Position numbers and translations under genes: made by a program. Below, in pieces: positions 31,702 to 35,542 of a DNA stretch of 39,160 nt (position 1 is the stretch's first letter; each line of letters opens with the position of its first letter). The DNA is from a virus. The notes under the pieces were generated by a model that made no database searches, was not told where the DNA came from, and was given only the letters and a program-made list of their open reading frames with translations. The DNA is taken from positions 1 to 39,160 of IMG/VR virus record IMGVR_UViG_3300045996_002301; one strand, 5' to 3'.

Positions 31702-32433
31702 ATGCAGATCGCGGTACTCTTTGACGGCGCAGGTCTCGCCCGTCTTGGGCTGGAGCAGGCGGGACACGACTGCACCGGGTTTGAACTCGACCCCCTGAAG
31801 CATCGCCTCGGCCAGCACGTCGGGTCGGGTAACACGTACCTCGCCGACGTCCGCGACGTCGACCTGTCCCGCTACGATGCCGTGTGGGCGTCGCCCCCGT
31901 GCCAGTGGGCGTCGTCGGCACGGACGCAGGGCGACCCGGTCTCCGACTACGCCATCGACCTGCTGCAGTGGTCGCTCGACCTCGACGTGCCAGTTCTCTG
32001 GGTCGAGAACATCATGTCGCAGTCGAAGGCGAACAACGGCTGGGGCACCCCCTACAACGCGGCACAGTTCACCAGCGTGCCCCTGCAGAACCGCAACCGC
32101 ATTATCGGCGGACACTACCGTGAGCCTCTCGTGTACACGTCGTACCGTAAGGCGTTCGCGGGCGTGTGCCCGTGCATCACGGCGACCGAGTACAAGGGGT
32201 GCGCCTCCGACACCCGCAGGGCGTCGAGGTTCTACGGTCGACGCCTCACCGTCGACGAGTGCGCCTACCATCAGGGGTTTGAGATCCCCGAGGCGTGGCG
32301 CGAGACCCCCGACGGGTTCACGCCGGGACGCTGGCGTCAGAACCTCTACGAGGCGATCGGCAATGGCGTGCCCGTGTACATGGCGCGTGGTTTCGGGGAG
32401 ATGTACCCCGTCGAGCATAGGAGGTCGGCATGA
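31702..32433 (+). CDS. DNA (cytosine-5-)-methyltransferase
   Basis: 243 residues, short for the family. Motif I: VLFDGAGLARLGLEQAGHDC (AdoMet binding). Motif IV: SPPCQWASSA with catalytic Cys67. Motif VI: PVLWVENI (Glu102). Motif VIII-like QNRNRIIGGHY. Motif X-like YEAIGNGVPVYMA near residue 220. The target recognition part is small. Methylation of C in phage DNA would protect from host restriction. It begins after GGAGGCAAACTAGC. The site recognised cannot be read; GTCGAC is enriched in this arm and is a candidate to test. Confidence 0.88.
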   Translation: MQIAVLFDGAGLARLGLEQAGHDCTGFELDPLKHRLGQHVGSGNTYLADVRDVDLSRYDAVWASPPCQWASSARTQGDPVSDYAIDLLQWSLDLDVPVLWVENIMSQSKANNGWGTPYNAAQFTSVPLQNRNRIIGGHYREPLVYTSYRKAFAGVCPCITATEYKGCASDTRRASRFYGRRLTVDECAYHQGFEIPEAWRETPDGFTPGRWRQNLYEAIGNGVPVYMARGFGEMYPVEHRRSA

Positions 32434-33796: not shown

Positions 33797-33817
33797 TATA
33801 CTACTACTGTTGACGGT
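33797..33817 (+). promoter_or_regulatory. -10 box TATACT plus ACTGTTGACGGT element
   Basis: TATACT at 33797-33802, then the 12-bp element at 33806-33817 over the predicted transcript start. The arrangement is repeated at 36557-36574. It probably drives the 78-residue gene and the tmRNA-like RNA. Confidence 0.6.
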
Positions 33818-33839
33818 AACGACGACCATGGAGGTCAGG

Positions 33840-34076
33840 ATGCAGTACCTGAGCAAGAACTTCAGCAGCAAGGCCGCAGCGAGGCGGGCCATCGCCAGCG
33901 GCGAGACGGTCAGGATCAGGATCGTCGAGGGGCAGACGCAGGGTCGCCCCAAGAACAGCCGCAAGCACGGTCAGGTCGTCGAGCATACGGTCGCGGGGCC
34001 ATGGTTCCCCCAGCCGCATTCTTGGTACGGCAACGCCCTCGTCGACGACAGCGGCGTCGTACTGGAGGTCAAGTAG
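33840..34076 (+). CDS. Basic hypothetical protein (78 residues)
   Basis: ATG 33840 behind GGAGGTCAGG: MQYLSKNFSSKAAARRAIAS, then VRIRIVEGQTQGRPKNSRKH and GPWFPQPHSWYGNALVDDSG. Basic, possibly nucleic-acid binding. It ends 11 bp before the tmRNA-like RNA, in the same transcript. A role as its partner is speculative. Confidence 0.65.
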   Translation: MQYLSKNFSSKAAARRAIASGETVRIRIVEGQTQGRPKNSRKHGQVVEHTVAGPWFPQPHSWYGNALVDDSGVVLEVK

Positions 34077-34087
34077 CACATGACACC

Positions 34088-34221
34088 GGGCGCGTGTAAG
34101 GTGTTGACGGGTAACGGGTCGGTAGGTTGTATTGAACCGCAGCGTAACCATACGGGGGGTTGCGGCGAAACGCTACCGACCGGGCACTCGGACCCCGGTT
34201 CGATTCCGGGCGCGTCCACCA
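34088..34221 (+). ncRNA. Minimal tmRNA-like RNA (134 nt)
   Basis: The ends form a tRNA-like domain. Acceptor GGGCGCG (34088-34094) pairs with CGCGTCC (34211-34217) in all seven positions, with G3-U70 wobble, discriminator A (34218) and encoded CCA (34219-34221): the alanyl-tRNA synthetase identity set found in tmRNA. T arm CCCGG-TTCGATT-CCGGG (34194-34210), preceded by CGGAC as in bacterial tmRNA. The D-like region has GTTGACGGG (compare TTCGACGGG of E. coli tmRNA). GGTCGGTAG/CTACCGACC (34117-34125 with 34173-34181) is a perfect 9-bp helix in the P2 place. The 47-nt loop contains GCA GCG TAA (34139-34147), Ala-Ala-stop, in a frame bounded upstream by TGA at 34133. No anticodon arm exists. Known tmRNAs are well over 200 nt, so the mRNA-like domain is almost absent. 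Confidence 0.75.
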
Positions 34222-34273
34222 CGGTAGAGGGGATACACCGTAACCCTGATGGGCCTGAGATGGTCTGCACAGA

Positions 34274-34324
34274 GGGGTCGCCCAGCCATATTGCTTCAGA
34301 TAAATGCGCGAACTGCGCGACCCC
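34274..34324 (+). other. Stem-loop downstream of the tmRNA-like RNA
   Basis: GGGGTCGC/GCGACCCC, 8 bp, closing a 35-nt loop. No T tract follows (AACAGGCG). It lies in the 128-bp gap before the next gene and could be a processing site, a structured RNA or a remnant of a second tRNA-like gene. Confidence 0.45.
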
Positions 34325-34349
34325 AACAGGCGACGAGACGGAGGTCAGC

Positions 34350-34919
34350 ATGTACCGAGTCATAGTAAAGGACACCGACGCCGACGAGGTCGTGGGCATC
34401 AAGGAATTCCCCACGCTGTGCGTCGCGGAGGACTACGCCGAGAAGTGCAACGACCCCGAAGCCAGCGTGCTGGCATGGGTGTGGATGGCGGGCGACGACC
34501 ATGGTCCAGATCAGGAGGTCGGTATGAACCTGAACGACAGGCGGGCGCAGGTCGACGAGATGGTCACCGAGGTCGTGGCCACGGTCGAGCGTGACGTGCG
34601 CAACATGCGGGCACAGCGTGACGCGATACGACGGAGCCAGAGCGACCGGATGCTGGACATATCCATACGGCAACTGTCGAAGGATGCCAGCATCGCCAGT
34701 GCCTCCCTGCGGGAGATGCTGCGGCAACTCGACGAAGAGGGCATCGCCCACCGCGACCAGCAGGTCGACGAGGTCACGCTTGAGTGCCCGTGCTGTGAGT
34801 CGCGGTGGCAGGTGGGCATCACCTACCCCGATGGCAACCCCGAGGGTACCTCGGACTGGGTGGTCGTTCGTGGCTCAGACAACTGCCCCGACTGCGTCAT
34901 CGGCGGGGTGGCGATATGA
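34350..34919 (+). CDS. Hypothetical coiled protein with Cys pairs (189 residues), possibly two-start
   Basis: ATG 34350 behind GGAGGTCAGC: MYRVIVKDTDADEVVGIKEF. An internal in-frame ATG at 34524 (MNLNDRRAQVDEM) has its own perfect GGAGGTCGGT, so a 131-residue form may also be made. The second half is a helical Asp/Arg-rich coiled coil, then CPCCESRWQVG and CPDC, a zinc site. TGA overlaps the Mom-like ATG. The frame stays open upstream to 34080 only because it runs through the RNA gene. Confidence 0.7.
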   Translation: MYRVIVKDTDADEVVGIKEFPTLCVAEDYAEKCNDPEASVLAWVWMAGDDHGPDQEVGMNLNDRRAQVDEMVTEVVATVERDVRNMRAQRDAIRRSQSDRMLDISIRQLSKDASIASASLREMLRQLDEEGIAHRDQQVDEVTLECPCCESRWQVGITYPDGNPEGTSDWVVVRGSDNCPDCVIGGVAI

Positions 34920-35542
34920 TCGCCACGATACCTTGTAACAAAGAGCTCCAGGTTGGAGCAAACTCGAACAAGATCCGCAAGGCCGACTACGAGGTCGTCG
35001 AGATCTCACACGCCGAGGGCATGGCACTGATACGCCAGCATCACTACGCCCAAGGCGGGTCGAGGACGTGCGTGTACATGCACGGTCTCAGGCGCAAGGC
35101 CGACGGTGCCATCGTGGGGGCGTGCATGTGGCTGCCACCCACGCGGGTCGCGGCGGAGAGCGTCGACCGCGAGAACTGGCAGCGGGTGCTGTCCCTCACG
35201 CGCCTCGTGGTCCTGCCCGACGTCCCCGGCAACGGTGCCTCGTTCCTCATGGCCGGGTCGATCAGGCGCATCAGGCGCGAGGGCAAGTGGAAGTCCCTCG
35301 TGACCTACGCCGACACCTTCATGGGCCACAGCGGGGCCATCTACCGGGCCACCAACTGGCTGTACGTGGGCGAGACGCGCCCGACGCCACGCTGGGAGGA
35401 CGCCGACGGTCGGCAGGTCGCGCCCAAGTCCACGGTCAACCGGACCAAGGCGGAGATGGAGGCGCTCGGGTACCGCAAGGTCGGCAGTTTCAAGAAGCAC
35501 AAGTTTGTGATGTACCTCGACGGGGGGAGGTCGACATGGTAG
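34916..35542 (+). CDS. Mom-like GNAT-fold acyltransferase (putative DNA modification)
   Basis: 208 residues from ATG 34916, overlapping the upstream TGA. RQHHYAQGGSRTCVYMHGLR, GAIVGACMWLPPTRVA, LSLTRLVVLPDVPGNGASFL, SLVTYADTFMGHSGAIYRAT and NWLYVGETRP follow the layout of the phage Mu Mom family, which modifies adenine to escape restriction. The family call is by memory of this layout. Codons 7-19 lie in the 40-bp dispersed repeat. Together with the C5 methyltransferase it suggests modified phage DNA. Confidence 0.65.
   Translation: MIATIPCNKELQVGANSNKIRKADYEVVEISHAEGMALIRQHHYAQGGSRTCVYMHGLRRKADGAIVGACMWLPPTRVAAESVDRENWQRVLSLTRLVVLPDVPGNGASFLMAGSIRRIRREGKWKSLVTYADTFMGHSGAIYRATNWLYVGETRPTPRWEDADGRQVAPKSTVNRTKAEMEALGYRKVGSFKKHKFVMYLDGGRSTW
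34933..34972 (+). repeat. 40-bp dispersed repeat, copy 2
   Basis: TTGTAACAAAGAGCTCCAGG ... ACTCGAACAAG, 38 of 40 identical to 30292-30331. Within the Mom-like coding sequence. Contains GCTCC-AGGTT-GGAGC, a 5-bp hairpin. Confidence 0.9.

Follow-up and report, generated by a model that had tools for sequence, protein, structure and literature searches.

The stretch of DNA analysed here, referred to as the window, is a 39,160-base virus record from IMG/VR (IMGVR_UViG_3300045996_002301) which encodes phage portal and major head proteins. At positions 34088–34221 of its plus strand, flanked by a small open reading frame (ORF), which ends at 34076, and by the next likely start codons, near 34351, lies a short RNA gene which the initial annotation had described as a transfer-messenger RNA (tmRNA)-like molecule with almost no mRNA domain. 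The description is borne out by comparison of the whole window with all Rfam models, in which the tmRNA model RF00023 matches precisely this segment with 50.1 bits (curated cut-off 47; E 5.4e-17), the alignment spanning model positions 1–374, end to end, with the message region deleted. It is almost certain that the locus encodes a real tmRNA-derived RNA lacking a message domain.

All the structural elements that had been listed for this RNA are present where they had been placed (Table 1), including the G3-U70 pair and A73, which constitute the alanine identity, as well as GUUGACGGG. What had been overlooked is an outer part of the P2 helix (CGGGU/ACUCG, 34108–34112 with 34186–34190), which a 4×4 internal loop joins to the 9-bp inner P2 helix. 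The unconstrained minimum-energy fold (−61.9 kcal/mol, z −1.99) recovers the acceptor, both parts of P2 and the T stem, as well as the apical hairpin, and within this fold P2 takes the place of the anticodon arm; the covariation support for P2 comes from the short members of the class, the window RNA having itself one relative. No pseudoknotted message domain is found within the 134 nt, as judged from the fold and from the deletion in the RF00023 alignment, and the D stem and the anticodon arm are absent from the fold, so that the molecule does not qualify as a tRNA (RF00005). Indeed, although tRNA-Ala shares with it G3-U70, A73 and the T arm, and has the length of the short class members, the missing D stem and anticodon arm set the window RNA apart, and RF00023, not RF00005, is the best model. 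ARAGORN, which had been proposed as a check, makes no call at 34088–34221 and reports in the window only a tRNA-His and a tRNA-Thr elsewhere.

Table 1. Coordinates of the RNA, its structural elements and the upstream ORF in the window.
Feature	Position	Strand	Basis
Small upstream ORF, function unassigned	33810..34076	+	62%-identical relative pointed to related contig
Complete RNA derived from tmRNA and lacking a message domain, 134 nt with encoded CCA	34088..34221	+	RF00023 match
Acceptor stem 5′ strand GGGCGCG, containing G3	34088..34094	+	7/7 pairs with 34211–34217; same acceptor in L060
D-loop analogue UGUAAGGUGUUGA, tmRNA signature GG..UUGAC	34095..34107	+	Sequence; class consensus
Outer P2 5′ strand CGGGU	34108..34112	+	Unconstrained fold pairs it with 34186–34190
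Inner P2 5′ strand GGUCGGUAG	34117..34125	+	Fold: partner 34173–34181
47-nt apical region with 7-bp hairpin 34137–34143/34159–34165	34126..34172	+	Fold
Inner P2 3′ strand CUACCGACC	34173..34181	+	Fold
Outer P2 3′ strand ACUCG, final G starting the conserved GGAC	34186..34190	+	Fold; class alignment
T arm CCCGG-UUCGAUU-CCGGG	34194..34210	+	Sequence; RF00023
Acceptor 3′ strand CGCGUCC (U70), A73 (34218), CCA (34219–34221)	34211..34221	+	Sequence; RF00023

The nearest related contig, IMGVR_UViG_3300045996_001613, was reached by protein searches from two starting points, the upstream ORF (62% identity) and the major head protein (71%); it carries an RNA of 82 nt (locus L060) scoring 55.7 bits with RF00023. 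In both genomes the RNA is found between a methyltransferase-like gene (window 31.7–32.4 kb, 80% identical) and homologues of the window region 34.9–37.7 kb. The acceptor GGGCGCG/CGCGUCC of L060 is that of the window RNA in 7/7 pairs and the outer P2 is comparable (CGGGUG/CACCCG in L060), but the apex is unlike and the triplets GCA GCG UAA of the window RNA are absent. Since the acceptor and outer P2 are common to both molecules and the apex differs, the part that has been kept is the tRNA-like domain (TLD) with the outer P2, and not the apex. What the window RNA retains of a tmRNA is the TLD and P2 stem.

We have scanned IMG/VR for further RNAs in which the tmRNA D-loop signature is followed at close range by GGAC and a T arm, and filtered the matches for seven acceptor pairs; of the acceptor bases only G1 and G2 were demanded, so that G3-U70 and A73 were not imposed, and the counts are of matches listed and hence lower bounds. 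After filtering, at least 111 distinct RNAs of 68–146 nt were obtained, that of the window included, and a stricter scan adds at least 32, bringing the total to about 140 distinct related RNAs, most of them of 78–84 nt. G3-U70 and A73 are found in all 111, with acceptor pairs 4–7 varying with compensation, and the CCA is encoded in 31 of them. Among 88 RNAs of 76–85 nt, P2 averages 6.66 contiguous pairs, as compared with 1.91 when the 3′ strands are reassigned among the sequences (at most 2.42 in 500 rounds). GGAC is invariant in the class alignment, where the D-loop consensus reads GG.UUCGAC, and a frequent apex comprises a small purine-rich internal loop and the cap CCGC-NN-GCGG.

Covariation was evaluated on 21 sequences less than 85% identical, an ungapped subset of equal length. 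The named structure is paired in 96.1% of cells, with 121 cells changed on both sides against 34.6 in shuffled sets, and the covariation score of 0.681 compares with 0.165 after shuffling (0 of 500 reaching it) and with 0.09–0.13 when the structure is slid. Two-sided changes occur in P2, the apical 3-bp helix, the T stem and the acceptor, with compensatory changes at seven of the eight P2 pairs; the initial annotation had named the acceptor and P2 helices as those in which such changes should be sought. RNAalifold, run on the raw MAFFT alignment of the 88 sequences of unequal length, yielded no pairs beyond the T arm and those next to it. A model of the 79-nt class (R1) scores L060 at 51.7 bits and gives the window RNA a partial match of 28.3 bits over 34158–34218 only, probably because it does not span the long P2 insert.

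On the evidence of these sequence comparisons, the window RNA is a member of a large and largely unrecognised viral class, and is thus not the exceptional molecule that it had first appeared to be. The class has been overlooked because ARAGORN is silent at 173 of the 179 related loci, missing 97% of them. Rfam gathering scores were reached by nine of 12 loci scanned at once; a record-by-record search finds the cut-off exceeded in 48 of the 50 records, in the one bacterial genome by the host's own tmRNA.

Several other forms were also encountered. Three RNAs of medium length (119–132 nt; L003:5118-5246, L006:11322-11437 and L274:10684-10806) have in common an apical motif, GAAGGCGCACAG with GAAAC after it, ahead of the P2 3′ strand, and may form a second subclass distinguished by this apex; two 111-nt forms (L229 and L263) have another apex in common (CAGGACGATTAYYGCCCAAGTG..AAGTCCCACGCTC). 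At further loci (L004, L005, L007, L015, L029, L033, L036, L041 and others), a sequence containing GACGGG recurs 60–90 nt before a tmRNA-type T arm, its upstream acceptor strand being unpaired; it is perhaps the 3′ part of another tmRNA form. Among the matches of the first scan, which used the GACGGG pattern, many were tRNAs or the usual 3′ ends of complete tmRNAs, and a match was retained only if it had the D-loop signature and a 5′ acceptor strand that pairs. The candidates from S-CRM01, GodonK, the CcrSC/CcrBL9 group, SM1 and Pseudomonas OQ658364 were rejected, as they are or resemble 3′ ends of full-length or permuted tmRNAs.

With one strict pattern, at least 120 mini RNAs are found among 121 viral loci, against 66 matches, five of them mini RNAs, in prokaryotes (one genome per species, 84,980 species); a sample of 297 genomes from the class of Cellulosimicrobium contains three. 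Two short-RNA queries returned no isolate match. Cultured phages carry the RNA: intact copies lie between tRNA-Val and tRNA-Ser in the Streptomyces phages LuckySocke, GiJojo and pSt2308, and after tRNA-Val in Streptomyces phage BRock, whereas Streptomyces phage Alone3 has in the same tRNA-Val/tRNA-Ser place a damaged copy (L365:1987-2063; 36.8 bits) with two mismatches in its T stem. The copy of Streptomyces phage Shaeky, located inside a dense tRNA array, scores 90.3 bits with the model built here, and a divergent one in Streptomyces phage Riptide 54.3 bits. None of these RNAs is annotated as tmRNA in the cultured-phage records. Overall, a tRNA gene occurs within 300 nt at 26 of the 179 loci, in 25 cases on the same strand (8.6 expected). 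Clustering of the neighbouring genes yields head-gene neighbours in several groups and no single partner gene. Portal, head protease, connector or exonuclease genes are often near mini RNAs (e.g. L022, L107, L411 and L136); the copy in the window is far from head genes.

We have also searched the records for the partners of tmRNA. SmpB (PF01668) is encoded in none of the 49 viral or phage records, the window and five complete isolate genomes among them, and is found only in the fiftieth record, the bacterial genome; as a control, the same search was positive in ten of 14 genomes, the other four being archaea. Likewise, no full-length tmRNA scores over the cut-off in the 49 viral records. As many of the IMG/VR records are fragments, these absences are in them weak evidence, and the isolates provide the stronger part.

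With respect to known systems, the nearest is the tmRNA of Mycobacterium phage DS6A (tmRNA Website tmID 11587), listed as 'TLD only' by Hudson, Lau and Williams in 2014 (PMC4131195) and taken up again by Nawrocki, Petrov and Williams in 2025, who add plastid forms of about 65 nt and two-residue Ala-Ala tags (PMC11915505); the sections of the latter paper drawn on here name no other phage case. Both phage genes are little more than a TLD and lack a tag reading frame, a likeness taken from the published description; they differ in that the P2 of the window RNA is longer and in two parts and its apex measures 47 nt, and in that DS6A is a single reported case, whereas here about 140 distinct viral sequences have a recurrent apical arm. 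A phage tmRNA without message domain had thus already been published, yet no wider phage class of such RNAs is described in the literature that we found, subscription papers lying outside this coverage. The standard one-piece tmRNA (RF00023) shares with the window RNA the acceptor with G3-U70 and A73, the D-loop signature, P2, GGAC and the T arm, but has a tag reading frame and pseudoknots and measures 300–400 rather than 134 nt, and the phage has no SmpB gene. The message-less mitochondrial tmRNAs (Jacob et al. 2004, as reported in PMC11915505) and the plastid forms are likewise tmRNA-derived and devoid of a message domain, but sit in organelle genomes and not in a phage. Finally, the permuted tmRNAs of the Caulobacter phages CcrSC and CcrBL9 and of Pseudomonas phage SM1 (RF04321) are phage tmRNAs with the same T arm and acceptor features, but keep a message domain and have the gene order reversed, neither of which applies to the window RNA.

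From this analysis we regard as the best explanation, with a probability slightly above even, that the RNA acts as an alanylated decoy which takes up host SmpB and stalled ribosomes and so blocks trans-translation. The transcript would be trimmed like a tRNA, charged with alanine by the AlaRS of the host, whose SmpB and EF-Tu would bind it, the SmpB partner being taken as the host's because the phages bring none. The complex would then compete with host tmRNA for SmpB and stalled ribosomes; in the A site it could accept the nascent chain but would have no codon for resumption, and trans-translation would therefore be blocked, the phage thereby antagonising or reprogramming host ribosome rescue during infection. 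What favours this reading is a published precedent, since E. coli tmRNA is strongly inhibited by a similar molecule whether or not the latter can be charged, perhaps via SmpB titration (Mao et al. 2009, according to PMC4131195 and PMC11915505). It is also supported by the TLD being kept as the apex varies between the window RNA and L060. Counting in its favour as well are the RF00023 match, the size of the class with its unbroken alanine identity and its covariation, the lack of SmpB and of full-length tmRNA in the viral records, and the location of copies beside tRNA genes. An alanine-accepting decoy, one of the functions initially put forward, is accordingly the proposal that best fits the comparative data and the published molecule, and the class suggests that many phages with this TLD-half RNA use it to jam or redirect the host rescue of stalled ribosomes.

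Some considerations weigh against the decoy. Alanylation, SmpB binding and inhibition of host tmRNA by these RNAs are steps that we infer, and the RNA is not essential for every phage, as the copy in Alone3 is damaged. Moreover, if inhibition needs no charging, titration of SmpB alone does not explain the unbroken G3-U70 and A73. The published inhibition without need of charging, taken with this unbroken identity, suggests that the alanine does more, and leaves room for tag-less rescue or for the untemplated addition of alanine.

Tag-less rescue, in which the alanyl-RNA with host SmpB would enter the stalled ribosome, take the nascent chain and free the ribosome productively without a message, is a possibility to which we assign a low but appreciable probability. 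The routes could be drop-off, hydrolysis by another factor or repeated rounds adding several alanines. That G3-U70 and A73 are never lost implies that charging matters, but we know of no release step that operates without a stop codon. Tag-less mitochondrial tmRNAs are conserved along with SmpB and have been read as helping with incomplete mRNAs (PMC11915505); the inhibition of tmRNA by the similar molecule in E. coli speaks against productive rescue (PMC4131195). More doubtful is a further reading in which the alanyl TLD with host SmpB would be the active agent at stalled ribosomes: since it brings no message, alanines could be added to nascent chains without a template in round after round, marking or trapping host and phage nonstop products. 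If true, this would be a virus-controlled alternative to tmRNA tagging that goes beyond simple titration.

Phages often integrate at ssrA, the tmRNA gene, and the RNA could be what decay has left of a tmRNA gene or of an attachment site in ssrA, as the damaged copy in Alone3 might also be taken to indicate. We consider this improbable. The class covaries strongly, both TLD halves are present with tRNA-like spacing, and BRock, which carries a copy, is a virulent phage (PMC7453282). In addition, the prophage of Cellulosimicrobium cellulans MP1 (L432:4160-4200 and L428:8069-8147) is bounded on one side, at 104.77 kb, by 22 nt repeated from the 3′ end of the host's ssrA, next to an integrase-like ORF, and on the other by ssrA itself at 157.14 kb, and is therefore integrated in ssrA; its complete mini RNA, at 128.57 kb in the company of exonuclease, terminase, portal and tail genes, lies 24–29 kb from either end and is a separate gene. 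On covariation, BRock and this separate attachment repeat, an attachment-site remnant was rejected.

Just as improbable, in our judgement, is that the RNA serves as an alanine donor or tRNA-like RNA in an off-ribosome process, or as a structural or packaging RNA, as the conserved alanine identity and the several loci near portal, head protease or connector genes could suggest. The tmRNA-specific parts (UUCGAC, GGAC, P2 and the lack of a D stem) are conserved although such roles do not need them, some copies reside in tRNA arrays, and that of the window is remote from head genes.

Ordinary tagging with a two-residue Ala-Ala tag, the other function initially proposed, is less probable still. The triplets GCA GCG UAA are present at 34139–34147 and 25 bacterial tmRNAs with an Ala-Ala tag have been reported (PMC11915505); yet GCA GCG is buried inside the 7-bp stem CCGCAGC/GUUGCGG, which is not an open resume-codon context, no PK1-like element is seen upstream, L060 lacks the triplets, and GCN-GCN-stop occurs in only two of about 120 related RNAs, the window RNA being one of the two. 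Least credible is a permuted two-piece tmRNA of which this would be the 3′ part, the 5′ part lying downstream, as the weak matches at 34190–34270 might indicate (RF04321, 25.9 bits, cut-off 47; RF01850, 26.2 bits, cut-off 84). It was rejected on this sub-cut-off RF04321 score and on acceptor pairing, as CGCGUCC pairs 7/7 with GGGCGCG upstream but not with GGGCCUG, the putative 5′ acceptor downstream, and the one-piece order of RF00023 fits over its cut-off.

Should the decoy reading hold, one published oddity, DS6A, would become a widespread viral strategy against a nearly universal bacterial quality-control system. The intact copies in the cultured Streptomyces phages Shaeky, BRock, LuckySocke and GiJojo make an attack on, or redirection of, trans-translation directly testable, and the unbroken alanine identity provides a sharp prediction that divides passive titration from an alanine-dependent act.

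Regarding the genomic surroundings, a second, near-identical relative contig (24 kb, head protein 100% identical) seems by its layout to stop before the RNA region. Close to the RNA in the window, part of a C-5 cytosine methylase is found at 31702–32433 and a Mom-like DNA modification gene at 34805–35542. An inverted repeat, GGGGTCGC...GCGACCCC, is located at 34270–34325, 3′ of the RNA and ahead of the next ORF. In the related contig, a 64-aa ORF has its final codons and stop in the 5′ acceptor strand of the RNA (L060:5786-5796), and processing at this point would leave a nonstop mRNA.
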